A DNA stretch of 64,000 nt, taken from positions 107,837 through 171,836 of IMG/VR virus record IMGVR_UViG_3300033233_000004. One strand, 5' to 3'. The position numbers were made by a program, and so were the translations under genes. Shown piece after piece: positions 22,331-44,208 of the stretch. The DNA is from a virus. Each line of letters begins with the position of its first letter. Position 1 is the first letter of the stretch. The notes beneath the pieces were generated by a model. It saw nothing but the letters and a program-made list of their open reading frames with translations. It did no database searches and was not told the origin of the DNA.

Positions 22331-22339
22331 AAAATTATG

Positions 22340-22573: not shown

Positions 22574-22628
22574 GGTACGAGTGATTTTAACGAAGATGAG
22601 TAAAATCAAATCCGCCAAACGGTCTTAG

Positions 22629-22702: not shown

Positions 22703-22728
22703 ATTTAGTCGAATCTGAAAGTTCAACT

Positions 22729-22905
22729 CTATTCGTCGCCCTTTTTCGTACAAGTGCAGGGTGAATATCTTTTGCACTTGCAATTATTACATTGATGCTC
22801 TGGCTGTTTATTTGTTGAAGCCCGAAGTTGTCGAAGACCTTTATACTTAGTTGGGTCAAATGCTGTAACTACACCGCGCATATCTACTGTTGTTCCATTA
22901 TTCAT
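22729..22905 (-). CDS. 58-residue Cys-rich protein
   Basis: MNNGTTVDMRGVVTAFDPTK leads to a C-terminal cluster QCNNCKCKRYSPCTCTKKGD with five Cys, a likely zinc site. A GGAAAG site precedes the ATG. Function unknown. Confidence 0.55.
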   Translation of the reverse strand: MNNGTTVDMRGVVTAFDPTKYKGLRQLRASTNKQPEHQCNNCKCKRYSPCTCTKKGDE

Positions 22906-22970
22906 CGAGTTCTTTCCGTTTCATGTAACCGCATAATTCTCAGACTCTCGGATCGCCAATTGTCCCTCTG

Positions 22971-23075
22971 CTATCCGTCTGCTAATACTATTCCGTCCCT
23001 TGCCATCAAACGAAGTACTTCTTGCTGCCGAGCAGTGAGTATCACATAAGGATGGTTAATAGTCTTCACAGTCAT
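22971..23075 (-). CDS. Very short helix-turn-helix-like ORF
   Basis: Thirty-four codons starting inside the end of the upstream gene (coupled ATG). LTARQQEVLRLMARDGIV matches the start of a LuxR-type helix-turn-helix. It is too short to be a full domain and could be chance or a remnant. Confidence 0.3.
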   Translation of the reverse strand: MTVKTINHPYVILTARQQEVLRLMARDGIVLADG

Positions 23076-23307
23076 AACATCTGCACTCTGCACAATGCTT
23101 AACACCATGGTTGTGTTCGTCTGCCAGTTCAGCATCGTTACACCACGTACCACATTTCTCACATTCTACGACACTGTTCTCCGAAAGATAGTGCTCCAAC
23201 TCTTCGAGGTCAGAAAACGCCAATCCATACTTTTGGAGTATGTCAGCTATGCTTTGAGCAGTTCCTAACAAGTCGTCAGCAATCTTCGCTTTGAGTTCGA
23301 GTTCCAT
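23056..23307 (-). CDS. Small zinc-finger-like protein
   Basis: Start placed at MELELKAKIADDLLGTAQ, 5 bases after the upstream stop; a longer frame would overlap that gene by 80 bases. The 83-residue protein has a helical N-half and a C-terminal Cys/His cluster (CEKCGTWCNDAE, HCAECRCYDCED). Function unknown. Confidence 0.6.
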   Translation of the reverse strand: MELELKAKIADDLLGTAQSIADILQKYGLAFSDLEELEHYLSENSVVECEKCGTWCNDAELADEHNHGVKHCAECRCYDCEDY

Positions 23308-23311
23308 CAAC

Positions 23312-23821
23312 TTAGACCTTGATACATAGATAACTGAACCCGCTACCTTTTCTGTACATCTTGGTGATTTGACAACCACCAAAGACTCCATGCACCCATT
23401 TCATATATACATGTAAACGTTTGTTTGCTTGCCATGTGCCTGTTTTCCCGATACAAGGTCTTCCACTACGATTTCCTTCATATACAGAAATGTAGATGCA
23501 ACCACCAACCTTCACATGTCGTCTTGCCAACCAAAGCACTTCTGTAATACCAGTAGATGTCTCGATGACATTTAGAACATTACACAAAGTAACAGTGTCA
23601 TAGTCATATCGTTCGAGCATTCTGGCATTGTGGTCGGATGTTCTATTGTAGGGGTCATAGATGAAGTTCCCTACACTTCGTTCCGCCAAATATTTAGTTG
23701 CTTCCTCGAACTTTCCACCACCAATATCCAGATTGCTGGTATGTGGATACCAGTTTACTAACTTAAACACTGCTGGTATCTGCTTGATACAGGTTCGTGC
23801 TGAACGATGTATTGTATCCAT
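23312..23821 (-). CDS. SAM-dependent methyltransferase-like protein
   Basis: A 169-residue protein with motif I-like SNLDIGGGKFEEATKYL (residues 29-45), an acidic motif II region YDPYNR, and TVTLCNVLNVIETSTGITEV before a VKVGGCIYISVYEG strand, the order of a class I methyltransferase. Substrate unknown; nothing ties it to DNA or tRNA. Confidence 0.78.
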   Translation of the reverse strand: MDTIHRSARTCIKQIPAVFKLVNWYPHTSNLDIGGGKFEEATKYLAERSVGNFIYDPYNRTSDHNARMLERYDYDTVTLCNVLNVIETSTGITEVLWLARRHVKVGGCIYISVYEGNRSGRPCIGKTGTWQANKRLHVYMKWVHGVFGGCQITKMYRKGSGFSYLCIKV

Positions 23822-23835
23822 GGTATCTCCCTTTG

Positions 23836-23924
23836 TGCCCTAAGTGGGACTCGAACCCACAATCGTTTCTAATGTTTGCCGTAGGGTTTGAGCCTACCGA
23901 CTTTGCCAGTTTGTCTACAAGGGC
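23836..23924 (-). tRNA. tRNA-Leu(CAA)
   Basis: Anticodon arm GTAGG-CTCAAAC-CCTAC, long variable arm, T arm GTGGG/CCCAC, acceptor GCCCTTG/TTAGGGC with one mismatch. Confidence 0.88.
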
Positions 23925-23925
23925 G

Positions 23926-24099
23926 TTACTGTATGCATCCGATACTTGTATGTCTCTTCGTGTTATCGCATATCGCATATTGCGATATGCAAATGCTCGT
24001 TTGGACGGTTTCTTTGTCTTGTGGCTTCACAAGCTCTTTGCGATGCTTAAGAGCCAGATGAACCAATTGTCGTATCAAACTTCTGCTTGGCTTTTCCAT
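23926..24099 (-). CDS. Possible small protein between two tRNA genes
   Basis: MEKPSRSLIRQLVHLALKHR continues to 57 residues and ends at the tRNA-Leu(CAA) 5' flank. A GCATATCGCA/TGCGATATGC hairpin falls inside. Coding is uncertain because there is no ribosome site. Confidence 0.3.
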   Translation of the reverse strand: MEKPSRSLIRQLVHLALKHRKELVKPQDKETVQTSICISQYAICDNTKRHTSIGCIQ

Positions 24100-24100
24100 G

Positions 24101-24174
24101 TACCACATAAGGGCCTCGAACCCTTAATCTTCTGCTTGAGAGGCAGATGTGTTAGCCTATTCCACTAATGTGGC
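24101..24174 (-). tRNA. tRNA-Glu(CTC)
   Basis: Acceptor GCCACAT/ATGTGGT, anticodon arm TCTGC-CTCTCAA-GCAGA, T arm AAGGG/CCCTT. Confidence 0.9.
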
Positions 24175-24369
24175 ATTTCCGCTCTTTGCTCCCCACTTCA
24201 TCATCTTCCAGACTCTGTGGTAGATGAAGTACAGCATAATGCGTATACCGATATATGTGAGACTTGTTTGAATAGAGTGTATTAAGATGTAAATAAGAAT
24301 CAATCCGAATAATTCCCACACAACGCCTTTTACAAACGTCCGAATATAGCTACGCTTCTTATCTGTCAT
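24157..24369 (-). CDS. DUF2061-like membrane protein
   Basis: Start at MTDKKRSYIRTFVKGVVWEL, one base after the preceding stop. The 70-residue protein has RTFVKGVVWE at the first helix and LYFIYHRVWKMMKWG at the end, the DUF2061 signature (conserved E/HRVW). The last codons lie inside tRNA-Glu(CTC). Two transmembrane helices predicted. Function unknown. Confidence 0.7.
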   Translation of the reverse strand: MTDKKRSYIRTFVKGVVWELFGLILIYILIHSIQTSLTYIGIRIMLYFIYHRVWKMMKWGAKSGNATLVE

Positions 24370-24370
24370 C

Positions 24371-24535
24371 TTATAGTATCCACTTTTCTCCACATTCTTG
24401 ACATTCATATAATGACGACTTTGGACGAATGGGTTTGAACTTGACTTCTGGTAAACCTATCAGCATTCTTCCATTACTTAGATGAAAGAATCTGCACCAC
24501 ATTCGTCGCCAGAAACTTGGGTCTCTTTTTTCCAT
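24371..24535 (-). CDS. 54-residue CxxC protein
   Basis: MEKRDPSFWRRMWCRFFHLS with C-terminal YECQECGEKWIL, a rubredoxin-like knuckle. AGAAAGG lies upstream, and the stop is 1 base before the DUF2061-like start, so the two are coupled. Confidence 0.6.
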   Translation of the reverse strand: MEKRDPSFWRRMWCRFFHLSNGRMLIGLPEVKFKPIRPKSSLYECQECGEKWIL

Positions 24536-24555
24536 ATGGCCTTTCTACTTGTTTG

Positions 24556-24630
24556 TACTCGGTGTAGGATTCGAACCCACGTTGACGCAGAATATAAGTC
24601 TGCCGCCTTAACCTGTCGTGCCAACCGAGC
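24556..24630 (-). tRNA. tRNA-Ile(TAT)
   Basis: Acceptor GCTCGGT/ACCGAGT, anticodon arm GCAGA-CTTATAT-TCTGC, T arm GTGGG/CCTAC. Reads AUA directly, without lysidine. Confidence 0.9.
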
Positions 24631-24741
24631 ATAAAAACCGACAAATAGAATCGAAAACCAAACTCGTTTAATATACAGTTCGACTATAAATATTGGTCAT
24701 ATCCCTCTATATATATACTATATAGAAAGGATAACTACATC

Positions 24742-25353
24742 ATGACAAATTCCAAACAACGACAAGTCGAAGGACAACACATTACTGCGGCAATGTCTCA
24801 TCAACGTTATCTAATACGAATAGAAACATACAAGCAAACTCCAAACTTATGTGCACAGTGTTATGCACCGCTTGCTTATAGCCACCGAAAAAACAAATTC
24901 TGTTCTCATTCTTGTGCAGCTATTGTTACTAACAGGCTTTTTCCAAAAAGACAACAAACAAATGGAACAAGAGAATATCGAAGACAAGGAAAATGGCGTA
25001 AACAATTTAGAAAAAAAAGGCTCCGTGACCTGACATTACTGGAATATTTAGAACGAACACACGTTAAACCTCTTCCAGCGATGATAAAGAAATCTGCTCT
25101 TCGTTCTTTTGCTCGACATTGGAATCAAGACATTCTCAAAAAACCGTGTGCAAATTGTGGATATGATAAACACGTTCAATTAGCACATATAAAAGCAATT
25201 CGAGATTTTCCATTAACAGCAACTTTGGGAGAAATTAACTCTCGAACAAACGTCATACAACTTTGCCCAAACTGTCATTGGGAATTCGATAATACCTTCC
25301 TTAAAATCTCTGTAGGGACAGAAGGATTTGAACCTTCAATTTCTCGATTATGA
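24742..25353 (+). CDS. HNH endonuclease on the opposite strand
   Basis: The only clear plus-strand gene in the array. The 203-residue protein has an N-terminal zinc knuckle (CAQCYAPL...FCSHSC) and a C-terminal HNH domain: CANCGYDKHVQLAHIKAIRD and NVIQLCPNCHWEFDN. A AGAAAGGATAACTACATC leader gives a ribosome site. The last 14 codons read through the complement of tRNA-Met(CAT), so its 3' end overlaps that tRNA gene. Probably a free-standing homing endonuclease. Confidence 0.85.
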   Translation: MTNSKQRQVEGQHITAAMSHQRYLIRIETYKQTPNLCAQCYAPLAYSHRKNKFCSHSCAAIVTNRLFPKRQQTNGTREYRRQGKWRKQFRKKRLRDLTLLEYLERTHVKPLPAMIKKSALRSFARHWNQDILKKPCANCGYDKHVQLAHIKAIRDFPLTATLGEINSRTNVIQLCPNCHWEFDNTFLKISVGTEGFEPSISRL

Positions 25354-25385
25354 GCCGAGCGGATTAGCCATTCTCCTATATCCCT
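25313..25385 (-). tRNA. tRNA-Met(CAT) or Ile2
   Basis: Acceptor AGGGATA/TGTCCCT, anticodon arm CTCGG-CTCATAA-TCGAG, T arm GAAGG/CCTTC. CAU tRNAs cannot be split into Met or lysidine-Ile by anticodon alone. Confidence 0.88.
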
Positions 25386-25395
25386 AAAAAGTACG

Positions 25396-25455
25396 TACCC
25401 CCAAAGAGGACTCGAACTTGGATGTTACTCGCTACTGCCGACCTCAACCCCACTA
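25396..25455 (-). pseudogene. tRNA remnant
   Basis: A T arm-like CCAAGTTCGAGTCC with a partial acceptor is present, but no anticodon arm or matching 5' half. Confidence 0.4.
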
Positions 25456-25462
25456 TAATTTT

Positions 25463-25927
25463 TTACGGAACAGGTCGTAATGATGTTATATTTCTATTAC
25501 CATCTACTCCAATTCTGAATGTTGCACCAACTTCGACAAACTGAGCAAGCAACTCACTGTATGGACTAATTACAGTAATGCCAAATTCTTTATTACCTTG
25601 CTCGTTACCAATCTGGTCATTCCATTGATTAACTAATGAAAGTACTGGCTCCTGAAATTGATTTACCGGAACTCCTCGTAAAACATTGGTGTTGGATTGA
25701 ACCACGCCAACAAAACCTTCAGTACTATACAAAAATGCTTGTCCATTATCCCAAGCAGAAAGTGTTACAACACCTACTTTCTCCAAAGACTGTACAGTAG
25801 TGGAGATTGGATTAATGTTTGAATCTGATGCTTGTGTACAGCCAGAACAATACAAACAAACTGCTGTAAACAAAAGCAACAAACTGGCTGAAAATATCTT
25901 AACTGCTTTAGCCGTTTGACTCTTCAT
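25463..25927 (-). CDS. Lipoprotein of unknown function
   Basis: A 154-residue protein with a signal peptide and lipobox (LLLLFTAVCLYCSGC). The mature part is beta-rich (FLYSTEGFVGVVQSNTNVLR) and Cys-free. It would be exported and membrane-anchored. An AAGGAGATACTT site precedes it. Third lipoprotein in the window. Confidence 0.7.
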   Translation of the reverse strand: MKSQTAKAVKIFSASLLLLFTAVCLYCSGCTQASDSNINPISTTVQSLEKVGVVTLSAWDNGQAFLYSTEGFVGVVQSNTNVLRGVPVNQFQEPVLSLVNQWNDQIGNEQGNKEFGITVISPYSELLAQFVEVGATFRIGVDGNRNITSLRPVP

Positions 25928-25985
25928 ATAAGTATCTCCTTAAATTATGTGATTTGTTATTTTAGTGAATTAGTGTTGTGAATTG

Positions 25986-26062
25986 TACCCTTGATGGGAA
26001 TTGAACCCACATTTTCATCCGTTATGCACGTTCTGCTTAGAAGGCAGAGCCATTACAAGGGC
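25986..26062 (-). tRNA. tRNA-Arg(TCT) lacking a D arm
   Basis: Acceptor GCCCTTG/CAAGGGT, anticodon arm TCTGC-CTTCTAA-GCAGA and T arm GTGGG/CCCAT are clear. Only 7 bases separate acceptor and anticodon stems, while 21 bases follow the anticodon arm, so the D arm is missing or displaced. Confidence 0.65.
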
Positions 26063-26078
26063 AAATCTAATTGTGACT

Positions 26079-26146
26079 GGCTTACAGCATATCATAAGTT
26101 CACTTACAAACGAAGCTACTATCATGCAAGGGTTTGTCTGTAAGCC
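26079..26146 (-). repeat. Inverted repeat between tRNA-Arg and tRNA-Ile
   Basis: GGCTTACAG/CTGTAAGCC with an inner ACAAAC/GTTTGT pairing. No tRNA features. Confidence 0.5.
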
Positions 26147-26150
26147 ATCG

Positions 26151-26221
26151 TCCGCCCAAGAGGAATCGAACCTCTATTACCAGTATATCGGACTGGCTTC
26201 CTACCGTTGAAAGACAGGCGG
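26151..26221 (-). tRNA. tRNA-Ile(GAT), C33
   Basis: Acceptor CCGCCTG/TGGGCGG, anticodon arm CCAGT-CCGATAT-ACTGG, T arm AGAGG/CCTCT. Position 33 is C. Confidence 0.8.
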
Positions 26222-26232
26222 AAAAGTATATC

Positions 26233-26295
26233 TTATTTACTTGGTTCATCAAGGTTAATACGAGTAAACTCATCAATGTCGATGTTGTGCGCCAT
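26233..26295 (-). CDS. 20-residue peptide
   Basis: MAHNIDIDEFTRINLDEPSK starts 2 bases after the preceding gene ends. Tight spacing is the only support. Confidence 0.25.
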   Translation of the reverse strand: MAHNIDIDEFTRINLDEPSK

Positions 26296-26297
26296 GC

Positions 26298-26507
26298 TTA
26301 GTTTATCCCCTGCCGACATCCACAATTCTGACAGTAATCGGTATATTCGGGCCGATCAATGTGTACCACCATTTCAGCGTGGGGATCGCCGCACAGAATC
26401 ACTTTTCGATGAACTCGATCATACACAATCGAATCTGCGGGTCGATCACAGTCATCGTCGGGATATTCGCACTTGTCTTTTCCAGTCAAATGTCGTACTT
26501 CGCTCAT
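26298..26507 (-). CDS. Small Cys-rich protein
   Basis: Sixty-nine residues (MSEVRHLTGKDKCEYPDDDC) with Cys pairs at both ends (CEYPDDDC, CQNCGCRQG). AAAGGAGAAC precedes the ATG. Probably binds zinc; function unknown. Confidence 0.6.
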   Translation of the reverse strand: MSEVRHLTGKDKCEYPDDDCDRPADSIVYDRVHRKVILCGDPHAEMVVHIDRPEYTDYCQNCGCRQGIN

Positions 26508-26566
26508 AAAGTTCTCCTTTCATTTAATCGGCATCGCACTACCCACTAAAAATACAAAGAATAAAG

Positions 26567-26653
26567 GGACAATGTGGAACCCAAAGTCAACTTAGCCGCC
26601 TTACCATGCTGTGTACGGGAGACAGGAGTAAACCGTACATGAGAACATTGTCC
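26567..26653 (-). repeat. Inverted repeat upstream of tRNA-Ala
   Basis: Outer GGACAATGT/ACATTGTCC and inner TGTACGG/CCGTACA stems make an 87-base closed element without tRNA features. Confidence 0.5.
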
Positions 26654-26659
26654 ATTGAG

Positions 26660-26734
26660 TGGACACAGGTGAGATTCGAACTCACAACCTCCGCATTGCA
26701 GGTGCGGCGCATTCCCATTAATGCTACTGGCCCC
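26660..26734 (-). tRNA. tRNA-Ala(TGC), C33
   Basis: Anticodon arm CCGCA-CCTGCAA-TGCGG (C at 33), T arm GTGAG/CTCAC. The acceptor GGGGCCAG/CTGTGTCC is 8 bp with two central mismatches but keeps a G3-U70 pair, the Ala identity element. Confidence 0.7.
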
Positions 26735-26852
26735 AAAAAGTCATTACACTGGTCAACCACTGCGCTACCCATCTGGATTGCTCTATGCGGTTATGGATTG
26801 TCTCCGCCGAATAGTCCAGCATAAGCCTTGTCCGTTGTATGCAATGACTTTG

Positions 26853-26925
26853 TACCATCATACAGATTCGAACTGTATCTTTGAAGTCCACAACTTCACG
26901 TGCTATCCATTAACACTATGATGGC
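26853..26925 (-). tRNA. tRNA-His(GTG)
   Basis: Acceptor GCCATCA/TGATGGT, anticodon arm TGAAG-TTGTGGA-CTTCA, T arm TACAG/CTGTA. Confidence 0.9.
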
Positions 26926-26930
26926 ATAAT

Positions 26931-26978
26931 ACTTCCAGACCCAACGTTTGAGGGTTATAAAGACCCAAGTCTGGAAGT
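26931..26978 (-). repeat. Inverted repeat after tRNA-His
   Basis: Perfect 10-bp ACTTCCAGAC/GTCTGGAAGT stem enclosing a GGGTCTTTATAACCC hairpin. Confidence 0.6.
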
Positions 26979-27222
26979 TATTTTTATACTATGTTCCCAT
27001 CCACCGCTTATGCAGCAGATACACTGTCCATTCAGCCTCACAATTATGACGACCGTTAAAGTGGGAACTTCTTTTTTTAACCTCTGGCGAAGTTGTCTCC
27101 GCTTTCCACTCGACTGGCGAACGATTTGAGAAGTAGGTTTCGAGCCTTGTTTCATTTGTCGTTCCTAAATCAGAGGGTGTTACCTGAATCATTCTCTTAA
27201 ATTGTCGTCCAATGATTCATTG

Positions 27223-27299
27223 CAGGACGTAGAGGAATCGAACCTCTTCGCTATTTGCACAGGTTTTGGAGACCTGCCGGAGACCATCTCCCACGTCCC
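27223..27299 (-). tRNA. tRNA-Trp(CCA)
   Basis: Acceptor GGGACGT/ACGTCCT, anticodon arm CAGGT-CTCCAAA-ACCTG, T arm AGAGG/CCTCT, discriminator G. Variable region is longer than usual (about 12 bases). Confidence 0.87.
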
Positions 27300-27359
27300 A
27301 TTTGTGGTACCTTCCATAGAACCTCTTAAGATGCTGAGAAAGATACCATAATTTTATTA

Positions 27360-27417
27360 AGTCCCTTATCTGCGGTTTTTGCACAGTGAACTGTGCAAAA
27401 ATACTCACAAAGGGACT
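27360..27417 (-). terminator. Nested inverted repeat, possible bidirectional terminator
   Basis: AGTCCCTT/AAGGGACT encloses an 11-bp TTTTTGCACAG/CTGTGCAAAAA hairpin with a 4-base loop and T-runs on both strands. Confidence 0.6.
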
Positions 27418-27520
27418 ATAAATACGGGATAACCTACAGGTGCGACCTGCTTCTGTATCGTCGGATTATCAGCGACTATCCAATATCAAGATTCCCTTGA
27501 ATCCTGTTCTTGGAGTGGTG

Positions 27521-27596
27521 TAGCAAGAGCAGGATTCAAACCTGCGATTTCTTGATTATGAGTCAAGCGAGGACGGTCAGACTCCTCTATCTTGCA
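27521..27596 (-). tRNA. tRNA-Met(CAT), second CAT tRNA
   Basis: D arm GAGG/CCTC, anticodon arm CTTGA-CTCATAA-TCAAG, T arm GCAGG/CCTGC. The acceptor TGCAAGA/TCTTGCT leaves bases 1 and 72 unpaired, an initiator-like feature, but the anticodon stem lacks the initiator G-C pairs. Confidence 0.83.
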
Positions 27597-27597
27597 G

Positions 27598-27671
27598 TCA
27601 AGGTGACAGGATTCGAACCTGCGACTTTCTGGCCCCAAACCAGACGCTCTACCAGACTGAGCCACACCCTG
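27598..27671 (-). tRNA. tRNA-Pro(TGG)
   Basis: Acceptor CAGGGTG/CACCTTG, anticodon arm TCTGG-TTTGGGG-CCAGA, T arm GCAGG/CCTGT. One base from tRNA-Met. Confidence 0.9.
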
Positions 27672-27689
27672 AAGTTATCTAAAAAACAA

Positions 27690-28210
27690 ACCATTTTGAC
27701 TACGCTCTGAATCTCGTTTACAACCATTGCAGAATTTGACCATAAAAATCAACTACCTTAGTGGACGTGTCGGCAATCGAAGCCGAGTCCAAAGTACTAC
27801 TAATAAAAAATCATTCACAGGTTTAGTCAGGCTTAGAACTCTTTGGTGCCACTACAAACCCGACGAACTCAGGCAACCGCAACAAAGCATTTGTTCAGTC
27901 CACGGTGCTTTGTACCTTCCGTGTTTCGCCATCTCCACCATCTGGTTTTTTGTCGTTGTGAGGTGTGTCAAACAGACCATATACCAGAACCTCACGAACT
28001 TATACCATTACTGGCACAAGTTCACTCTCGTCTGCAAAGACCAAAATACCAGCCTCGTCAACGAAAGCCGTAGAAGATTTAGCTTCTGCGTTTGTGTTTT
28101 TTAGTTACATTACGGTGTAACAACCCCGACCTGCATTCTTTACTAATTTTACCCTGTCGAATCCTTTCACGCCCATTGTATTACAACTATCTCTTTTTTC
28201 TCTGCTCTTT
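27690..28210. other. Gene-poor stretch
   Basis: About 520 bases with no gene I can support. A T arm-like remnant (TCGGCTTCGATTGCCGA) lies near 27770. A plus-strand frame ending CRCEVCQTDHIPEPHELIPL near 28073 looks protein-like but has no ribosome site; a short minus-strand frame MVCLTHLTTTKNQMVEMAKH is equally weak. Confidence 0.5.
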
Positions 28211-28483
28211 TTACAAGTGTCGATGACCAGTGTATACAAAATGCTTTCTGTAAATTTCTCGTGTTGGTTTCCTATTACTACCATTTGTTAAGAACAACTC
28301 AGGATGCTCATCTCCTTGTTTGGTAACAAATACCGAAAAGGTATTACAAGCTAAGAATTCGTCAGCACATCTTTTCTGGAATACACATGTATCACAAGGC
28401 GACGGAACCAGAAGTTCACCCATGGATGCTTCAATTATGGATGCTTCTTCCTGCGTAAGATATTTTTGAATAAGATTACTCAT
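28211..28483 (-). CDS. Small Cys-containing protein
   Basis: Ninety residues; CDTCVFQKRCADEFLAC (29-46) could bind a metal or an iron-sulfur cluster, in the style of small WhiB-like sites but without further match. It has an AAGGAGATAC ribosome site and its own promoter. Function unknown. Confidence 0.65.
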   Translation of the reverse strand: MSNLIQKYLTQEEASIIEASMGELLVPSPCDTCVFQKRCADEFLACNTFSVFVTKQGDEHPELFLTNGSNRKPTREIYRKHFVYTGHRHL

Positions 28484-28502
28484 GTATCTCCTTGTTTGAG
28501 TA

Positions 28503-28531
28503 ATATACTCATATCATCTGTAAAAGTCAAG
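28503..28531 (-). promoter_or_regulatory. Sigma70-type promoter
   Basis: TTGACT, 17 bases, TATATT, 20 bases upstream of the next start codon. Confidence 0.85.
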
Positions 28532-28550
28532 TGAAGTCTAAACTTTTTTG

Positions 28551-28623
28551 TGGGGCAAGTAGGAGTCGAACCTGCTTATCTGGATTTTCAGTCCAGCACA
28601 CTGACCACCAGTGTTATCACCCC
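28551..28623 (-). tRNA. tRNA-Phe(GAA)
   Basis: Acceptor GGGGTGA/TTGCCCC, anticodon arm CTGGA-CTGAAAA-TCCAG, T loop TTCGACT. Confidence 0.87.
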
Positions 28624-28626
28624 AAT

Positions 28627-28672
28627 AAGAGGCTGTCTCTAATGTATGTCTCCTACAGTGCAACAGCCTCTT
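28627..28672 (-). repeat. Inverted repeat upstream of tRNA-Phe
   Basis: AAGAGGCTG/CAGCCTCTT, 9 bp, enclosing 28 bases without tRNA features. Confidence 0.55.
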
Positions 28673-28812
28673 GGCTCTCGAAGGAGTCCTTTATTTGCTT
28701 TGTAGGCTAACAGCTTGTTTTTACCACAACGTCTTGTAGTATGGGTCAAGCATTATTCCCATGTCCTGTATCTCAACATCCCATAGAACGTTGAGGTTCA
28801 GTTTTTTGAAAA

Positions 28813-28884
28813 TCGTCCCTGTCGGAATCCGACCGACATCTCTCCTTGAAAATAAGGAGTGTTCTAAGCAGTTAAACTAAGGGC
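28813..28884 (-). pseudogene. Degenerate tRNA-like sequence
   Basis: T arm GTCGG/CCGAC and a CTCCT/AGGAG arm with an 8-base TATTTTCA loop are visible, but the acceptor pairs only with a bulge. Identity (Glu or Lys) cannot be set. Confidence 0.45.
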
Positions 28885-28888
28885 ATTT

Positions 28889-29116
28889 CTATGATTTCGA
28901 TATTTCATTTACACCATGTTTTTCTAAGCAGTCTGGCGTAATACAATTTCCTTCTGAATCAACTTGTATTGGGCCACAACCTTCACAGAGAACTACAGCA
29001 TATAATCCTTGTGCTTCTTCTTCTATTGTTGTTATTCCAACAAAATCACCTTTATGAATGTCACCACCATTATGTGGATATAAATTCTCTGCACATTGTC
29101 TACAGAATTCTGCCAT
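28889..29116 (-). CDS. Small double zinc-ribbon protein
   Basis: Seventy-five residues with FCRQCAENLYPHNGG near the N-terminus and LCEGCGPIQVDSEGNC near residue 45. This CxxC...CxxC pattern with PIQVDSEGNC recurs in small phage proteins of unknown function. AGGAGATAAT precedes the ATG. Confidence 0.7.
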   Translation of the reverse strand: MAEFCRQCAENLYPHNGGDIHKGDFVGITTIEEEAQGLYAVVLCEGCGPIQVDSEGNCITPDCLEKHGVNEISKS

Positions 29117-29117
29117 A

Positions 29118-29318
29118 TTATCTCCTCTTTGGTAATCTTATTTCACTACGTCCATCATTAGGGTCGAAAGACTCGTATCCACGATACCTAAAGAATTGTT
29201 GTGACTTTTTATTCTTATCTAACACAACGTTATTCTTGACTATTCTAAAACCAGTTGGATATTGGTCAATAAGTTTTCGCTGTTGTTTATTATGCTTTTC
29301 ATTGCTTAAAAATGTCAT
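29118..29318 (-). CDS. Small basic protein
   Basis: Start at MTFLSNEKHNKQQRKLIDQY with GGAG upstream. Sixty-six residues, Lys/Arg/Gln-rich. It overlaps the upstream gene by 20 bases. Function unknown. Confidence 0.55.
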   Translation of the reverse strand: MTFLSNEKHNKQQRKLIDQYPTGFRIVKNNVVLDKNKKSQQFFRYRGYESFDPNDGRSEIRLPKRR

Positions 29319-29514
29319 CTGAGGCTCCAACTAAAATCTCTCCATGGGCACCTTTTAAAAGAATAACATTTACACCCTTTTCAAATAGGTTTCGTGCCAC
29401 TTTATACTCATCGACATTAGTCAGAACCTGATTGTGTTTGTAACCAGAGTCTTTGATAGCTTTAATTTCTCGATGAGAGGTATGCCATGCAAACACTGTT
29501 ACTTTTTCAGCCAT
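29299..29514 (-). CDS. Small alpha/beta protein
   Basis: Seventy-one residues with alternating strands and helices (KVTVFAWHTSHREIKAIKDS, GVNVILLKGAHGEILVGA). Possibly a small Rossmann-like domain; no family recognised. Confidence 0.55.
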   Translation of the reverse strand: MAEKVTVFAWHTSHREIKAIKDSGYKHNQVLTNVDEYKVARNLFEKGVNVILLKGAHGEILVGASDDIFKQ

Positions 29515-29516
29515 AT

Positions 29517-29747
29517 TTACCCTTTGTCAAAATGTTTGTATTTTTCGGTAAAGGATACAAATCTGACTTCTATATCTTGCAATGCATCTGAAACACAAGC
29601 GTAAGGGCCATACGTAGTAATCATATTACCATGAATCACCATAGTAGCATACCAACAACCATTTCCCTTGTCCCAATAGATACCACAACCATCTTGTTCA
29701 GTACCACAGGTAAAATGTCTTGTTCTTTTATCATATGTCCATACCAT
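29517..29747 (-). CDS. Small protein of unknown function
   Basis: Seventy-six residues, aromatic and beta-rich (GIYWDKGNGCWYATMVIHGN). It ends 2 bases before the next gene, so the three genes here form an operon. AGGAGATTC precedes the ATG. Confidence 0.6.
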   Translation of the reverse strand: MVWTYDKRTRHFTCGTEQDGCGIYWDKGNGCWYATMVIHGNMITTYGPYACVSDALQDIEVRFVSFTEKYKHFDKG

Positions 29748-29764
29748 AGAATCTCCTGTTTACG

Positions 29765-29855
29765 CGGTAAGTGACGGATTCGAACCCTCAAAACATCTTT
29801 CGACGTTCAACCAATTTTCAAGATTGGGCCTCGCACCAATGAGGTCAGACTTACC
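29765..29855 (-). tRNA. tRNA-Ser(TGA)
   Basis: Acceptor GGTAAGT/ACTTACC, anticodon arm CCAAT-CTTGAAA-ATTGG, long variable arm, discriminator G. Confidence 0.92.
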
Positions 29856-29996
29856 AAAACTAACCTATTTTGAATACTATCTATAATTTGAACATTTGTG
29901 CAAGGCAAAACAGACACAAATACCCAACCGTTATCTGCAAGCCGTTGTCATTCGTAGCGGCTCACTGCCATCACCTAATTTCCGTTGTGGCACGAC

Positions 29997-30158
29997 CTAT
30001 CCGCTTTTTTCTGTCAAGCCAAATTCGTTGTTTCCGACAATGAAAAACTCATGCTCTCTGTCATCAATGAGATAATCATCGTCCTGTAATTCCGGTTTGT
30101 TCTTGGTGACAAATACTACTCCGTTGGGTTGTAATGCTAACCATACCTTTATCTTCAT
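29997..30158 (-). CDS. 53-residue protein
   Basis: MKIKVWLALQPNGVVFVTKN then an acidic stretch (ELQDDDYLIDDREHEFF). AAAAGGAGCGAAAGAC gives a clear ribosome site. Function unknown. Confidence 0.6.
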   Translation of the reverse strand: MKIKVWLALQPNGVVFVTKNKPELQDDDYLIDDREHEFFIVGNNEFGLTEKSG

Positions 30159-30263
30159 GTCTTTCGCTCCTTTTCAAAATCTAAACAGGTGAGGTTTTGA
30201 ATCTCTGGTTCATCTGCTGATACTACAGATGCGTCTTCTTCTCTTTAGACGATACCTGTTGTG

Positions 30264-30335
30264 AGCCGCAAATGTGAATCGAACACACACCACCTGACAT
30301 ACCAAGTCAGTGCACTACCATTATGCTACTGCGGC
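30264..30335 (-). tRNA. tRNA-Thr(GGT)
   Basis: Acceptor GCCGCAG/TTGCGGC, anticodon arm CTGAC-TTGGTAT-GTCAG, T arm GTGTG/CACAT. Confidence 0.9.
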
Positions 30336-30349
30336 ATTACTTATTATTA

Positions 30350-30421
30350 GGCCAACGACTTGACTTGAACAAGCATCTCTCGATTACGAAACGAGAATTC
30401 TACCACTTAAACTACGCTGGC
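30350..30421 (-). tRNA. tRNA-Thr(CGT)
   Basis: Acceptor GCCAGCG/CGTTGGC, anticodon arm CTCGT-TTCGTAA-TCGAG, T arm GCTTG/CAAGT. Confidence 0.85.
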
Positions 30422-30574
30422 GTTTCTTTCTTCCACATAATGGTAGATAATCTCACCAAATGGAACGACAGTGACCTTTGACTTCATTTGAGAAGTTTGA
30501 GGAGTCTTTGGATGTCCAAAAAAAGCACTATAAATCCAAGCTCCAATTAACATTGATATAAGGTTAAGTCCCAT
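30407..30574 (-). CDS. Small membrane protein overlapping tRNA-Thr
   Basis: MGLNLISMLIGAWIYSAFFG gives one transmembrane helix; the last codons lie in tRNA-Thr(CGT). The promoter -10 box ends only 5 bases before the ATG, so the message would be leaderless, or this frame is not used. Confidence 0.4.
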   Translation of the reverse strand: MGLNLISMLIGAWIYSAFFGHPKTPQTSQMKSKVTVVPFGEIIYHYVEERNASVV

Positions 30575-30579
30575 GATGT

Positions 30580-30608
30580 AATGTACATAATCGTAAATCA
30601 AAAGTCAA
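30580..30608 (-). promoter_or_regulatory. Sigma70-type promoter
   Basis: TTGACT, 17 bases, TACATT, reading toward the Thr tRNAs. Confidence 0.78.
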
Positions 30609-30625
30609 GGTAAATCTGAACTATT

Positions 30626-30700
30626 TGGAGCCACAAATCCGATTCGAACGGATGCCATTATCTTACAGGGATAATATACTTCCAACTATACTATTGTGGC
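30626..30700 (-). tRNA. tRNA-Thr(TGT), CCA encoded, C33
   Basis: Acceptor GCCACAA/TTGTGGC, anticodon arm TTATC-CCTGTAA-GATAA (C at 33), T arm ATCCG/CGGAT, then U-CCA. Confidence 0.87.
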
Positions 30701-30704
30701 ATTG

Positions 30705-30776
30705 AGACCAGAGTGGAATTCGAATCCACATACGTAGTTTTGCGGACTACTACCTAAGCCCTTCGGTCATCTGGTC
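30705..30776 (-). tRNA. tRNA-Cys(GCA), C33
   Basis: Acceptor GACCAGA/TCTGGTC, anticodon arm GTAGT-CCGCAAA-ACTAC (C at 33), T arm GTGGA/TCCAC. Confidence 0.87.
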
Positions 30777-30816
30777 AATGTCTAATTAAACGTTGCTACT
30801 TCAACAACCAATTGGG

Positions 30817-30858
30817 ATTTCTGTCATAGTTGTTGCGAGCATAAAGTATGACAGAAAT
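30817..30858 (-). repeat. Inverted repeat after a protein fragment
   Basis: Perfect 12-bp ATTTCTGTCATA/TATGACAGAAAT. Next to it (to about 30965) a minus-strand frame without a start reads EELEAFFEIEIEHMKVLPKF...CYFCHTLC, probably a decayed small gene. Confidence 0.6.
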
Positions 30859-30987
30859 AACATTCGCCTTTTGGAAACTTTGGTAAAACTTTCATATGCT
30901 CAATTTCAATCTCAAAGAATGCTTCCAACTCTTCATTTGATTTAAGATGGAATTTCTTTTTATTTCATCAATGAATCTACCCATGTG

Positions 30988-31059
30988 CTGCGGACGAATG
31001 AATCGAACATTCATGATAGGCTTCAGAGACCTACATCTTATCCATTAGATGAATCCGCA
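30988..31059 (-). tRNA. tRNA-Gln(CTG)
   Basis: Acceptor TGCGGAT/GTCCGCA, anticodon arm TAGGT-CTCTGAA-GCCTA, T arm GAATG/CATTC, discriminator G. Confidence 0.88.
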
Positions 31060-31060
31060 A

Positions 31061-31366
31061 TTATTTCTTTTTATCAGTTTTCTCACGAGTACGAAGCTCA
31101 TTAAATAGAGCTACAACAGCGTCCGCCGATTTCAAATCCTTCTTGCGTTCTATTGCTCCTACTACAGCGTAAGGATAAAAACTTCGCCAAGTATCTGTAC
31201 TCGCAAAGTACGTGATACTGAATCTATGTTCCCAATTTTGTAATGTAACTACAAGATGGGGTGTACCATTGAGTGAAAATCTGAATTCCGCACCTTCAAT
31301 TTTTTCACCCAACTCTTTAATCTTGGCTTCAATAACTGCTGAGAATTTGGTTATTCTGTTTCCCAT
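31061..31366 (-). CDS. Small protein of unknown function
   Basis: Start at MGNRITKFSAVIEAKIKELG with a GAGGAACC site; a longer frame runs into tRNA-Asn. The 101-residue protein has a beta-rich middle (AEFRFSLNGTPHLVVTLQNW) and a basic C-terminus. No family recognised. Confidence 0.6.
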   Translation of the reverse strand: MGNRITKFSAVIEAKIKELGEKIEGAEFRFSLNGTPHLVVTLQNWEHRFSITYFASTDTWRSFYPYAVVGAIERKKDLKSADAVVALFNELRTREKTDKKK

Positions 31367-31386
31367 ATTAGGTTCCTCAATCTGTT

Positions 31387-31462
31387 GTGGCTCCGACAGC
31401 AAGAGTCGAACTTGCAACTCCACGGTTAACAGCCGTGTACTCTGCCATTGAGTTATGTCGGA
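31387..31462 (-). tRNA. tRNA-Asn(GTT), CCA encoded
   Basis: Acceptor TCCGACA/TGTCGGA, anticodon arm CACGG-CTGTTAA-CCGTG, T arm GCAAG/CTTGC, then G-CCA. Confidence 0.93.
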
Positions 31463-31544
31463 ATAAAATCTGATGTTCTATTTCCCGCCAAGAGTAGGAT
31501 AGGTAACTCTAACAAGTGTTACTCTCACCCGCATACTCGGTGCC

Positions 31545-31588
31545 TATCTATGTGTATGCGACCCAAGGTAACACAGCGTACATAGATA
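31545..31588 (-). repeat. Inverted repeat upstream of tRNA-Asn
   Basis: TATCTATGT/ACATAGATA; a second pairing GTGTTAC/GTAACAC crosses it and could form a pseudoknot. Confidence 0.45.
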
Positions 31589-31590
31589 CA

Positions 31591-31797
31591 TCAGAAAGCT
31601 TCAAATTCTCCTATATAACTAATACCATATTCCAAAATAGGAAAATCAGAAGTCATGATTTCATCTTCCATACGAAAAGCTTCTATAACAGCTTCTTCTT
31701 TTGTCTGAAATACTTTAGAAGTTCCAAAATAACTTCTCAAAGTATCTTTTCTTTCTTGAGAACCTTCTGGATAATAATCTATATTCTCATTAGATCG
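31591..31797 (-). pseudogene. Small gene with a disrupted start
   Basis: The frame ENIDYYPEGSQERKDTLRSY...ILEYGISYIGEFEAF looks like genuine protein sequence, but the only nearby ATG (31790) is out of frame by one base. A single lost G at that ATG would explain it. It could be a pseudogene or a sequencing error. Confidence 0.45.
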
Positions 31798-31919
31798 TCA
31801 GAGGTCTACTCAAAGTGTCTTCTCGACACATCCAGTATCAACAATTCAAAGTAGCGAACTTCAAATTTACACTGGTCTTAGTTTTCACCAACGATTGATA
31901 CCTTATCACGTCCCAAAAT

Positions 31920-32018
31920 AGTTCTTTTGACTGGATTCGAACCAGTAATCATTCGCTTCTTGTGCACATGGGCGAATACGGGTATTCCGCTCGGCTGCCA
32001 GTTTCGACACAAAAGAAC
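31920..32018 (-). tRNA. tRNA-like sequence, identity unclear
   Basis: A 9-bp closing stem GTTCTTTTG/CAAAAGAAC and a perfect T arm ACTGG-TTCGAAT-CCAGT are present. The middle has a CCGAGCGG D loop-like motif, GAATA/TATTC and TTCGC/GCGAA stems, but no standard 7-base anticodon loop. Either an unusual class II tRNA or a tRNA with an insertion. Confidence 0.45.
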
Positions 32019-32036
32019 ACGATATATCTCCTTTTT

Positions 32037-32186
32037 TTATGAACCAATAGAATAACCACGCTCTTTTAAAGCAGCAAGTATCTTTTTTGCTTCAGAAATA
32101 GCTGCTTCTTTTGTATAACTTTCGTCGCTTATTGAACGAAATCCATACAGAATAGTTGCGATGTCTTCAACAAATAATTTTTCCAT
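32037..32186 (-). CDS. 49-residue protein
   Basis: MEKLFVEDIATILYGFRSIS, helical and charged, with an AGAAGGATACTTTT ribosome site. It lies between tRNA-Tyr and the odd tRNA-like sequence. Function unknown. Confidence 0.5.
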   Translation of the reverse strand: MEKLFVEDIATILYGFRSISDESYTKEAAISEAKKILAALKERGYSIGS

Positions 32187-32207
32187 AAAAGTATCCTTCT
32201 TTCTTTG

Positions 32208-32292
32208 TGTATCAGGATGGATTCGAACCACCAAGGATTTCTCCTACTTGTGGGTTACAGCCACATGCCTTACCAATTGAGGCTACAGATAC
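32208..32292 (-). tRNA. tRNA-Tyr(GTA)
   Basis: Acceptor GTATCTG/CTGATAC, anticodon arm TGTGG-CTGTAAC-CCACA, long variable arm as in bacterial Tyr tRNA, T arm GGTGG/CCATC. Confidence 0.9.
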
Positions 32293-32321
32293 AAACTTGT
32301 AATGGACTCCCAAATTTAATG

Positions 32322-32392
32322 CGGAGCCAGAGAGAATCGAACTCTCAATCCTTGCGTGACAGGCAAGCAGTTTGCCATTAACTTATGACTCC
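32322..32392 (-). tRNA. tRNA-Asp(GTC)
   Basis: Acceptor GGAGTCA/TGGCTCC, anticodon arm CTTGC-CTGTCAC-GCAAG, T arm GAGAG/CTCTC, discriminator G. First tRNA in transcription order. Confidence 0.92.
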
Positions 32393-35273: not shown

Positions 35274-35507
35274 CTGTCATCTCATACACACGTGCGAGTT
35301 GCAACGGGGAATCATGAATCAAATCAGAATCTCAGCAAACTGTCATCTCATACACACGTGCGAGTTGCAACATCTGACCGAGCCGTAAGATGTTGATCGC
35401 AGCATTCCTGTCATCTCATACACACGTGCGAGTTGCAACACGAACACTCTCTTCTATGAGGATGATTACCACAAGCTGTCATCTCATACACACGTGCGAG
35501 TTGCAAC
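35274..35507. CRISPR. Four-repeat CRISPR array beside a TnpB/Cas12-like gene
   Basis: Four identical 32-bp repeats start at 35274, 35340, 35408 and 35476. On the plus strand they begin CTGTCATCTCATACA and end GCGAGTTGCAAC; three unrelated spacers of 34, 36 and 36 bases lie between them. The repeat end GTTGCAAC is self-complementary, and a TGCAAC end is known from Cas12f-type repeats. There is no cas1 or cas2 nearby. Spacer 2 matches the 3' part of a tnpB gene (see findings). The array begins 26 bases after the nuclease stop codon, where TnpB elements normally encode their guide RNA. Transcription direction is not settled. Confidence 0.93.
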
Positions 35508-35533
35508 CACTATACAAATCTGTCAACACCAGT

Positions 35534-36814
35534 CTATACAATCTGTATAGCTTCCGCTAACCCAAACTTTTGAGACCCTTCTGACTCGATACACCCGTCA
35601 GTCGGTGAGACGAACGTCTCTTTACAGGCTTGCGCCTGTTGGCTCTGACCGAGCCTTAAGATGTTAATAGCAGCATTCAAATCTCGATTTATTTCAAGCC
35701 CACATTCGCATGTATATATTCGTTCCGCTAACGTCTTCTTTTGCACACGACCACACTGTGAACATGTACTTGTTGTTCCTGCTGCTTTTACTTTCACAAA
35801 GACCCTACCAGCTTCTTCCGCTTTGTAGGCAATCTGATTCAAAAACTGTGACCAACCAGCATCAGCAATAGACTTATTCAATCCGTTCGGTAAACTTGAT
35901 TTTGGCTTACATCGCTTAGACATTGTTTTTACGTTCAAATCTTCAACAGCAATCAACCCATACTGATTTACAAGCGTTCGAGACAATTTATGGTGAAAAT
36001 CTGCTCGTTGTCTACGAATCTTGGTATGTAAAGCAACAACTCGTTTTTTAGCGTTTTGACGACGATTAGAGCCTTTGGCCTTGCGACTCAAACTTTGTTG
36101 TGCTTCGGTTAGCGCAACCGCCGCCTTACGATACCAACGAGGGTTTTCTATTGCCTGTCCAGTAGATAACATAGCAAAGGTGTTCAAACCAACATCAATA
36201 CCGACTTGTTTGTCGGTATTAGGTAATCTTTGACAAGGTACATTATTACAAGAAAATACAACATACCACTCATTTGCTTCTCGTTTGATTATTGTAGTCT
36301 TGATTGTCCCAAGAATACTGCGGTCTATCTTGACACGAACAAGACCAATGTTCAAGAATCTTACAACGAATCTACCACTTGGGAGCTTCACAAGTTTACA
36401 ACCAGAACCGTATGTTGGATACACAAGACTATCCCATCTATCTCGTCCTTTGAATCGAGGAAAACCTGCGGCTTTACCTGCACCTACTTGTACACGTTTC
36501 TCGAATGCCTTGTAAGCCTTATGTAGACGGTCTAATACCGCATTACAAGTTTGTGCTGGTACTTGACCAAGACCAGCAGGGTCAGAAATACGGGCTTCTG
36601 GATAAAATCTCATCTGGTCATACGCAGTAAGCGATGATACAGAAGACGTATATTTCTTTTTGTTCTCATTCCAAAACTTGGGTGTAGACTTGTACTGATG
36701 TATACGCTGTTCCAACGCAGCATTATACAGAGACCGAGTTGCATTCAATTGTAACTCAAGTTTCTGAATTTGAACCTTGTTAGGATACAAACGATATTTA
36801 AATGATTTACGCAT
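35534..36814 (-). CDS. tnpB: TnpB/Cas12-like RNA-guided nuclease
   Basis: A 426-residue protein of IS605 OrfB type. N-terminus MRKSFKYRLYPNKVQIQKLE is the usual TnpB start; the RuvC catalytic residues are intact: D207 (VGIDVGLN), E291 (AVEDLN) and D378 (NRDLNAA); a zinc ribbon uses C351, C354, C369 and C371. TnpB enzymes use a guide RNA from their own 3' end to cut DNA, and Cas12 nucleases evolved from them. Here a CRISPR array lies at that 3' position, there is no TnpA transposase, and the size fits compact type V-U/Cas12f-like effectors. It could still be an ordinary TnpB; only guide-RNA data would decide. Confidence 0.92.
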   Translation of the reverse strand: MRKSFKYRLYPNKVQIQKLELQLNATRSLYNAALEQRIHQYKSTPKFWNENKKKYTSSVSSLTAYDQMRFYPEARISDPAGLGQVPAQTCNAVLDRLHKAYKAFEKRVQVGAGKAAGFPRFKGRDRWDSLVYPTYGSGCKLVKLPSGRFVVRFLNIGLVRVKIDRSILGTIKTTIIKREANEWYVVFSCNNVPCQRLPNTDKQVGIDVGLNTFAMLSTGQAIENPRWYRKAAVALTEAQQSLSRKAKGSNRRQNAKKRVVALHTKIRRQRADFHHKLSRTLVNQYGLIAVEDLNVKTMSKRCKPKSSLPNGLNKSIADAGWSQFLNQIAYKAEEAGRVFVKVKAAGTTSTCSQCGRVQKKTLAERIYTCECGLEINRDLNAAINILRLGQSQQAQACKETFVSPTDGCIESEGSQKFGLAEAIQIV

Positions 36815-41552: not shown

Positions 41553-42196
41553 AACTGTGCTGCTGCTGCAATGGTCGGAAAATTCTGTTTGAATATATGT
41601 AGTATAGATTCTGCTACTTGACGATGTTCTAATTGAGCGTGTTCATCACAACGAACCTGCAAATAATGTATCCAACTTCTCACGGAACCTTTCATATAAA
41701 GAGTAGTTTGTGTAGTAAGAGGTAATATCATTCGAGCACACTCTTTGGCAATACCTATGGATAATAAATCCTCGTATGATTCTTCGGCTATTTGAACCGC
41801 ATTTCGAACAACATCATCCGCATAAACCTTGTCATCACCTATGGGTACTATTGTCGATGACTGCCGATTCTTAGTAGCCTGATAACGCAACTGTACTGGT
41901 TCCATTGCCGATACTATAGCATAACGTTGCGAAAACTCCTGAAAAGAAAAAGAGCGATGTCGAAGTATTTGTTGTGCAATAGCTCGACTTGTTACGATCT
42001 CTACACACATATCTACTTGTTCGAAAGGCGACCAGTGTTTATTAGATATGAGATACTGAATCAATTTGGATGCAGTCTCAGTATTCAACTGATTGCTTGG
42101 GTTACTAACTCTCGCAATGTATACTATCAACTCTTCTGGTGATAGTTCTTGTTCTGTAATATAGGATTTAGTGAGAGATATAAGACGTACTTTCAT
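41549..42196 (-). CDS. thyX: Flavin-dependent thymidylate synthase
   Basis: A 215-residue ThyX with the signature RHRSFSFQEFSQRY (RHRxxSxxxxSxRY) near residue 79 and the C-terminal region LQVRCDEHAQLEHRQVAESI. It makes dTMP from dUMP using FAD, NADPH and methylene-tetrahydrofolate. It overlaps the RNR gene by 4 bases, so dNTP supply is organised as one operon. Phage ThyX is common in large phages. Confidence 0.95.
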   Translation of the reverse strand: MKVRLISLTKSYITEQELSPEELIVYIARVSNPSNQLNTETASKLIQYLISNKHWSPFEQVDMCVEIVTSRAIAQQILRHRSFSFQEFSQRYAIVSAMEPVQLRYQATKNRQSSTIVPIGDDKVYADDVVRNAVQIAEESYEDLLSIGIAKECARMILPLTTQTTLYMKGSVRSWIHYLQVRCDEHAQLEHRQVAESILHIFKQNFPTIAAAAQL

Positions 42197-44208
42197 AACG
42201 TGCCTTTCGAAGTAATTTCACAGACATCGTTTGAACAATACTTCTCAATAGCAACTTCTTCCCCACGTATACGTCCTAATCTAAGCTTACCCAACTTCTT
42301 CATCTTTGCTTTGCATGTTTTCTCATCAATAGCTTCATATGGCATTTGACGATACACATGAGTCTTATGTCGTGGTAAGAAGCTCACACCTTTAAGTTGG
42401 TATTGGAAGTAATCCAATGCATGAACTAATTCTTCGCCTTCGGTCATTGGATTGAAAGATACTGTAGCGGATACTTGATTATCACTCCAATACTTCTGCA
42501 TAAATGCTGCTAAGGATAACTGTTCCCACATGGACACTTCATCCACAGAACGCATACCAACACCAATGTCCACAGGCACCTCCACAACTACCGTGGTGTG
42601 CTCCAATCCGTAACATGGTTCTACATGATAGCCAGCTTTCTTCAATGGTGCAATTAATTCAGATGTGTTATTCAGTCGGATTCGACGAATGTAGAATCTG
42701 GATTCAGGATAATGAATTCCGGGAGTTGCACCTGCTAACAGCGAAACAGTTCCAGATGGTTTCACGGAAGTAGTTTTAATGCTAAGTGGAATTGCAAACC
42801 ATTCGGAATAAACAGTATCCCATTTTTGTACAGTGTCGTAACCAGCTATAAGCCATTGGCGTAGTGTCTCAATTCCACGATAAGTCACAAACTGAGCAAT
42901 ACCACTAACCGAACAACCTATTCTTCGATTACGCAGCATGATACGATTGGTCTCTGCCCAATGTGTCTTACCTAATGTTACTGTCTTGGCATAGAGATAG
43001 GCATACTTAAGTGTGATAAGATAATCTTCCAACGTATCGTGTTTGAAAGGAAATGTCTCAACTAAACAGCAAAGCTCCATTGATTCAAGCGTTTGTTCAC
43101 CACAGGGATTAGTTCCATCAGCACGACGATCTTTATTATCTATGTCCTTATTCATACGAGAATAACCACGCATATTATCAAGCCATGCTATTCCCGGCTC
43201 TCCATTATCTATAATACGTTCCGCTATTGAAGCATATTGATCTCCCATTTTTGCAAATACGGAATTATTGGATGCCCAACCATACTCTTCTCGGTGTGGA
43301 TTTTTTTTGTAGTTCTTAAGGTCTAAATATTCTATATTGTCTATGCCACCAAGAACTAATTCTGCACTTCGACGAATATTTCCTGATACCACACACTTAC
43401 CAATAAGATTCATAATATCTACAATAGTGGTAACACTGATAGGCGACCCCACTTCTTTGTCCAATATCTTTCGCACAGCTTCGTGCATTTCTGTAAGCGG
43501 TTTATATCCTGAACTCGTACCACCAAAACCTTTGATTGGTTCTCCTTCCTTTCGAATAAGAGTATAATCAAATACAATCGGTGCTGTAGATAAAAAATAG
43601 GATTCAAGAAGAAGACGCAGACTTTCTACCCACCCCTCTCGTGTATCAGGGATTTGGAATTTCTCCACACTACGTTTGGTGTTAGGCTCCTTGATAATAA
43701 TCTGACCAGCCCCCAAAGTATCAAACGCTATACCACACCCTAACATGGACATATCCATAAGGAACATAAAAGGCTTGGCTAAATCCTCTTTCAGATTTTT
43801 AGTAGACACATACCCACAATTATTTAATGCAGCATACAAGCCCTTCTCTTCCGTAATAGAACTACCCATTGCCCATAGTCCACGACCCGGTGGAAGGAAT
43901 TTCATCTTGAACATTCGAGTATACATCTCTTGGGCTGACTTCTGAGCTTGCCATGCATTCCATCCACACCCATGTTTCTCGATGTGTTGCTTCTGCATCC
44001 GATACGTACCTTCTACAACTCTCCTACAGGTTTCAAACCATTGCTCATTGGGACACTCACACTTTTGTGTCTGTGCACAGGTTGGACTATGTTGAATACG
44101 TGAGTATGCTTGCATGTATGCCAACTCTCCCAAGCCGTTGAAACCGAATGGTGGTAACTTAGTTTTGAATGTATCAATGAAACTGTCAGACAACTGAAAC
44201 TTGTCCAT
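42193..44208 (-). CDS. Class II (B12-dependent) ribonucleoside-triphosphate reductase
   Basis: A 671-residue protein with PPGRGLWAMGSS, NNCGYVST (reductive Cys), NPCGEQTLESMELCC (radical Cys and general base Glu) and VKPSGTVSLLAGATPGIHYP. The C-terminal KYCSNDVC holds the redox pair that regenerates the enzyme. This is the monomeric adenosylcobalamin-dependent type known from Lactobacillus leichmannii (about 740 residues). It reduces NTPs without oxygen or a second subunit, but depends on host cobalamin. Confidence 0.93.
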   Translation of the reverse strand: MDKFQLSDSFIDTFKTKLPPFGFNGLGELAYMQAYSRIQHSPTCAQTQKCECPNEQWFETCRRVVEGTYRMQKQHIEKHGCGWNAWQAQKSAQEMYTRMFKMKFLPPGRGLWAMGSSITEEKGLYAALNNCGYVSTKNLKEDLAKPFMFLMDMSMLGCGIAFDTLGAGQIIIKEPNTKRSVEKFQIPDTREGWVESLRLLLESYFLSTAPIVFDYTLIRKEGEPIKGFGGTSSGYKPLTEMHEAVRKILDKEVGSPISVTTIVDIMNLIGKCVVSGNIRRSAELVLGGIDNIEYLDLKNYKKNPHREEYGWASNNSVFAKMGDQYASIAERIIDNGEPGIAWLDNMRGYSRMNKDIDNKDRRADGTNPCGEQTLESMELCCLVETFPFKHDTLEDYLITLKYAYLYAKTVTLGKTHWAETNRIMLRNRRIGCSVSGIAQFVTYRGIETLRQWLIAGYDTVQKWDTVYSEWFAIPLSIKTTSVKPSGTVSLLAGATPGIHYPESRFYIRRIRLNNTSELIAPLKKAGYHVEPCYGLEHTTVVVEVPVDIGVGMRSVDEVSMWEQLSLAAFMQKYWSDNQVSATVSFNPMTEGEELVHALDYFQYQLKGVSFLPRHKTHVYRQMPYEAIDEKTCKAKMKKLGKLRLGRIRGEEVAIEKYCSNDVCEITSKGTL

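Follow-up and report, generated by a model that had tools for sequence, protein, structure and literature searches.

A phage tnpB gene with an adjoining CRISPR array as a likely intermediate between transposon-encoded and type V CRISPR nucleases

A large uncultured tailed phage carries a locus that looks like a transposon nuclease caught turning into a CRISPR system. A small CRISPR array directly follows a tnpB gene, each repeat bears near its end a short strand able to pair with the loop of omega-RNA stem A, and one spacer closely resembles part of tnpB. We consider it likely that this locus is an intermediate between the TnpB nucleases of transposons and type V CRISPR systems.

The tnpB gene and its array

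The window, the 64-kb stretch of DNA analyzed here, is the final part of a viral record of 171,836 bases in total. The phage encodes an HK97 capsid gene, relatives of which were found in 14 viral contigs. Neither a tnpB of this kind nor a protospacer for the array spacers was found in these 14 contigs. A LAGLIDADG_2 endonuclease gene (1222-2052; E 4.8e-25), likely a homing endonuclease, adjoins the major capsid gene. Within 15499-32392 lie 35 tRNA genes and one tmRNA, whose predicted tag peptide is long, at 29 aa. Two relatives have a ribonucleotide reductase gene interrupted near residue 486 by about 1.16 kb, likely an intein or intron (L063:15800-18982; L066:11875-15057); the copy in the window (42193-44208) is uninterrupted.

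The array (35274-35507) contains four identical 32-nt repeats, starting at 35274, 35340, 35408, and 35476, and spacers of 34, 36, and 36 nt. It begins 26 nt past the tnpB stop codon and lies on the same strand. In tnpB-strand order, the features are as follows.

35534-36814, minus strand: tnpB, 426 aa; Pfam OrfB_IS605 and Cas12f1-like_TNB; guided_TnpB, 289 bits
35476-35507, minus strand: first CRISPR repeat, GTTGCAACTCGCACGTGTGTATGAGATGACAG; TGAC two bases 5' of the spacer
35440-35475, minus strand: spacer 3, the first in this order, 36 nt
35408-35439, minus strand: second CRISPR repeat, identical 32 nt
35372-35407, minus strand: spacer 2, 36 nt; matches tnpB at 35643-35678
35340-35371, minus strand: third CRISPR repeat, identical 32 nt
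35306-35339, minus strand: spacer 1, 34 nt
35274-35305, minus strand: fourth CRISPR repeat, identical 32 nt

The encoded TnpB retains its RuvC residues D207, E291, and D378, which are invariant in alignment with relatives, and its zinc-ribbon cysteines are intact. The closest TnpB proteins found were about 40-48% identical. No IS605 left or right transposon ends were recognized by eye at this gene, and flanking relatives were too diverged for an empty-site comparison. The same phage encodes a second TnpB of 403 aa between structural-looking genes (record position 81713-82924; L016:1713-2924). This second tnpB has canonical IS605-type end hairpins and no array, making it a useful contrast inside the same phage. 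Elsewhere, a single MAG, Proteobacteria bacterium F1-120-MAGs186 (L085/L086), contained 139 tnpB matches, an unusually high load.

Neither cas1 nor the adaptation genes of a complete CRISPR-Cas system were found in the 171,836-base record, which is possibly incomplete. Array-like repeats were present at none of 79 related viral tnpB loci (flank up to 1.5 kb). The core of spacer 1 gave no match in searches. Spacer 3, read as FYEDDYHK, matched two phage proteins; this candidate was rejected, as the DNA identity of 20-21 of 36 was at noise level.

Omega-RNA scaffold and repeat ends

In the nearest relatives the omega-RNA lies in the gene end, with stem A directly after the NIL codons, followed by further hairpins, a terminal hairpin, a short tail, and the guide. 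These ends were placed on the basis of conserved sequence and are putative. The local locus contains the corresponding parts, listed here with a candidate anti-repeat.

35641-35655, minus strand: omega-RNA stem A, GGCTC-GGTCA-GAGCC, inside the tnpB 3' end; loop GTCA (35646-35649) is the pseudoknot strand
35508-35680, minus strand: folded omega-RNA scaffold (tnpB coding end plus 26 nt downstream); z = -4.2 and -4.5
35520-35529, minus strand: presumed original omega-RNA 3' end, GTGT-TGAC-AG; TGAC at 35522-35525, 2 nt 5' of its guide; compare GGTG-CTTC-AC in L121
35554-35567, minus strand: candidate anti-repeat (weak), which in the folded scaffold pairs with positions 2-14 of the repeat

At z = -4.5, the scaffold fell below all 150 of 150 random windows on the same strand. 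A hairpin comparable to stem A occupies the equivalent position in relatives (L019, L022, L121, L122, L127, and L132). An Rfam search returned nothing worth keeping. As a long duplex, the anti-repeat was not significant, its region ranking 521st of 17142 windows. A direct repeat, ACAGATTGTATAG / ACAGATTTGTATAG, flanks the presumed omega-RNA end (minus strand, window 35510-35545) and could hide that end in a 12-bp hairpin.

Pairing between the stem A loop and the tail connects this scaffold to the array. With loops and tails picked by eye and G-U pairs allowed, the loop paired with a tail ending 2 nt before the guide in 21 of 23 related TnpBs, and none of 5000 shuffles did as well. Counted by distinct types (n = 18), 16 loops paired with their own tails, compared to a mean of 7.9 in shuffles. 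Under strict Watson-Crick pairing, scored automatically on 54 sequences, loops matched their own tails in 25 cases (46%) and foreign tails in 117 of 1080 (11%). Loop and tail pairs among relatives include GACG/CGTC, GACT/AGTC, GACA/TGTC, GAAG/CTTC, and GATTAC/GTAATC.

The local loop requires TGAC. With the array read in the direction of tnpB, every spacer is preceded by TGAC at a distance of exactly 2 nt, and a further TGAC lies 12 nt ahead of the array, where the omega-RNA presumably ended originally. Of the loops compared, the local tail fits its own but none of 17 others; for a random tail, pairing with the local loop is expected in 0.8% of cases, a figure that concerns a single 4-base match. 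Because TGAC precedes every spacer by 2 nt and recurs at the presumed original end, the repeats look as if the omega-RNA 3' element had been multiplied, and the local TnpB is their putative effector. On this evidence from base pairing, the array seems to form a structural component of the guide-RNA system of the local TnpB, an important connection that the original prediction did not make.

Some properties of the repeat fit less well. In the local repeats, AG stands between TGAC and the guide instead of the usual AC, which counts against the intermediate model. In the tnpB-strand orientation the isolated repeat folded no better than shuffles (z 0.6), and slightly better in the opposite orientation (z -0.9); the terminal hairpin ahead of TGAC is weak within the repeat. 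No second locus with this repeat was found, hence the covariation results concern the relatives and not the repeat itself.

Spacer 2 and its source

The match of spacer 2 to the adjacent nuclease gene, claimed in the original prediction, was confirmed.

35643-35678, minus strand: local counterpart of the spacer 2 target; encodes the RuvC-III peptide NAAINILRLGQ and shares bases with omega-RNA stem A, loop included; GATTT on the 5' side

Spacer 2 (35372-35407) aligned with this segment without gaps at 32 of 36 positions, between the repeats at 35340-35371 and 35408-35439. Across 713 kb, comprising this phage and the 14 capsid relatives, the next-best match reached only 24 of 36, so the similarity greatly exceeds chance. 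Counted along the guide on the minus strand, the differences are at positions 10, 13, 23, and 36. Of these, the first three are silent, as predicted (GCT/GCG, ATT/ATC, and AGG/CGG), leaving the peptide NAAINILRLGQ unchanged. By our arithmetic, random single changes in these codons are silent about 23% of the time, such that three of three would be silent by chance in about 1% of cases. The mismatch at position 36 may be a repeat-border base, since T precedes the repeat after both spacers 2 and 3.

The matching site is doubly constrained, encoding both the RuvC-III peptide and the loop of omega-RNA stem A. The hairpin loop GGTCA is common to spacer 2 and the local gene. We rejected spacer 2 as a part of the scaffold, as it lacks the 3' strand of stem A. 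Together with the repeat end GACAG, spacer 2 also reads in frame on the minus strand (35372-35412) as D-R-NAAINILRLGQ, resembling a RuvC-III motif. This is probably chance, because every repeat has the same end. The T-rich flank GATTT belongs to the local gene, not to a known target, and is unlike the TTTAY-like flanks glimpsed in relatives, where left-end comparison was too noisy to yield a target-adjacent motif.

The similarity does not reach past the repeat border on either side. This is what a true spacer should show, in contrast to a decayed copy of the gene end. The latter, the alternative to acquisition already named in the original prediction, draws on the gene copy lying only 235 bases away. 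With identical repeats on either side, a length equal to that of the next spacer, and silent changes, we regard it as highly improbable.

The proposal that spacer 2 derives from a homologous tnpB was borne out in part: it is a real spacer, and the tnpB it derives from is very close to the local gene. Its placement in another element went beyond what the searches support. No external tnpB matched better than the local gene, an outcome that the original prediction had itself named as refuting it, although the collections searched lack close siblings (the nearest relative protein is about 48% identical). IMG/VR contained no exact copy of spacer 2, and the peptide NAAINILRLGQ was absent from all viral contigs searched. 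Outside this phage the peptide was seen only in one MAG, in two matches with other codons, canonical omega-RNA ends, and no array. As a better external match is absent, we can only infer that the source was either a closely related sibling of this tnpB or this gene in an earlier form; of these, a rival element appears the likely source. Escape of the local gene by silent changes is compatible with the data. It is no more than compatible, because ordinary divergence between orthologues yields the identical pattern, and drift in the local gene itself is also conceivable.

Such drift would follow if the phage had acquired spacer 2 from its own tnpB, or from that gene's direct ancestor, leaving an array that is partly self-targeting or decayed. 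The lack of a better external match in the collections searched is in line with this, and purifying selection on the protein would leave silent changes alone. Self-acquisition would be harmful if the nuclease is active, three of three silent changes are equally consistent with orthologue divergence, and guide position 36 differs as well. We hold an own-gene origin to be unlikely. It concerns only where the spacer came from and can coexist with the intermediate model.

If the locus is such an intermediate, the tnpB transcript would run through the omega-RNA scaffold and on into the array. Each repeat would end with the omega-RNA 3' element, consisting of the 4-base strand pairing with the stem A loop, two bases, and then the guide. 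TnpB would bind the scaffold in the gene end, which would serve in the manner of a tracrRNA, plus any repeat-spacer unit, and would cut DNA matching the spacer. Spacer 2 would aim TnpB at a sibling tnpB on a rival phage or element, while the mismatches of the local gene at guide positions 10 and 13 should weaken self-cleavage.

Alternative readings and known systems

The array could instead be an ordinary viral CRISPR mini-array that uses host Cas proteins against related phages, its position beside tnpB being coincidental. Such arrays, with repeats of host type and spacers directed at related viruses, are common (PMC11656645; PMC7162821). The local array resembles them in its few spacers, in the absence of cas1 or any other adaptation gene found in the record, and in a spacer directed at a phage-type gene. 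It differs in adjoining its own candidate effector and in its repeat, for which 84,980 species, each represented by one genome, and the viral contigs, phage, and plasmid records searched gave no exact match, although the host may be absent from these collections. Moreover, the array occupies the exact position of the omega-RNA guide, and its repeat ends bear the stem A partner at the canonical distance. We hold the mini-array reading to be unlikely. A different role for the locus, that of an allele weapon, is quite unlikely in our assessment: TnpB guided by spacer 2 would cut the sibling tnpB of a co-infecting phage, repair from the local copy would replace the rival system, and the array would spread by homing.

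The intermediate model places the locus nearest to TranC (LaTranC, PDB 9jfo), the closest known system. TranC, described in 2025, reportedly pairs a TnpB-type nuclease with a CRISPR array, omega-RNA function apparently being split between a scaffold and repeat-spacer units. As in TranC, omega-RNA and array are adjacent in the local locus. Features of TranC and type V-U intermediates found here include an intact RuvC site, an adjoining array, and a repeat bearing the omega-RNA element next to the guide. The local protein is nonetheless nearer to ISDra2 TnpB, its best solved relative (156 bits), than to LaTranC (76 bits), and its locus is phage-borne, with three spacers, one apparently against a sibling tnpB. 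With ISDra2 and other IS605-family TnpBs it shares the protein family, stem A, loop-tail pairing, and an omega-RNA overlapping the gene end. It departs from them in having an array and, unlike the second tnpB of this phage, no recognized transposon ends.

The same pairing of TnpB and array is seen where type V-U or TnpB genes lie beside arrays in phages and other mobile elements. TnpB is inferred to have become associated with arrays or adaptation modules about 50 independent times (PMC12669027). Viral TnpBs of 401 and 433 aa are reported to adjoin arrays (PMC12607003), and TnpB-array loci are reported in viruses (PMC12607003; PMC7162821). Apparent omega-RNA pairing borne by the repeats and a probable tnpB target set the local locus apart; neither is described in the passages of PMC12669027 and PMC12607003 examined. 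The special feature of the local locus is its spacer, apparently against a sibling tnpB.

How TnpB is converted into a CRISPR effector is an active research question, for which this locus provides a natural example. Behind a single gene, an omega-RNA end that appears complete adjoins repeats bearing the identical pairing strand, such that each step of the conversion could be tested by a few base swaps. The locus further suggests that phages may turn such systems on one another's nucleases.
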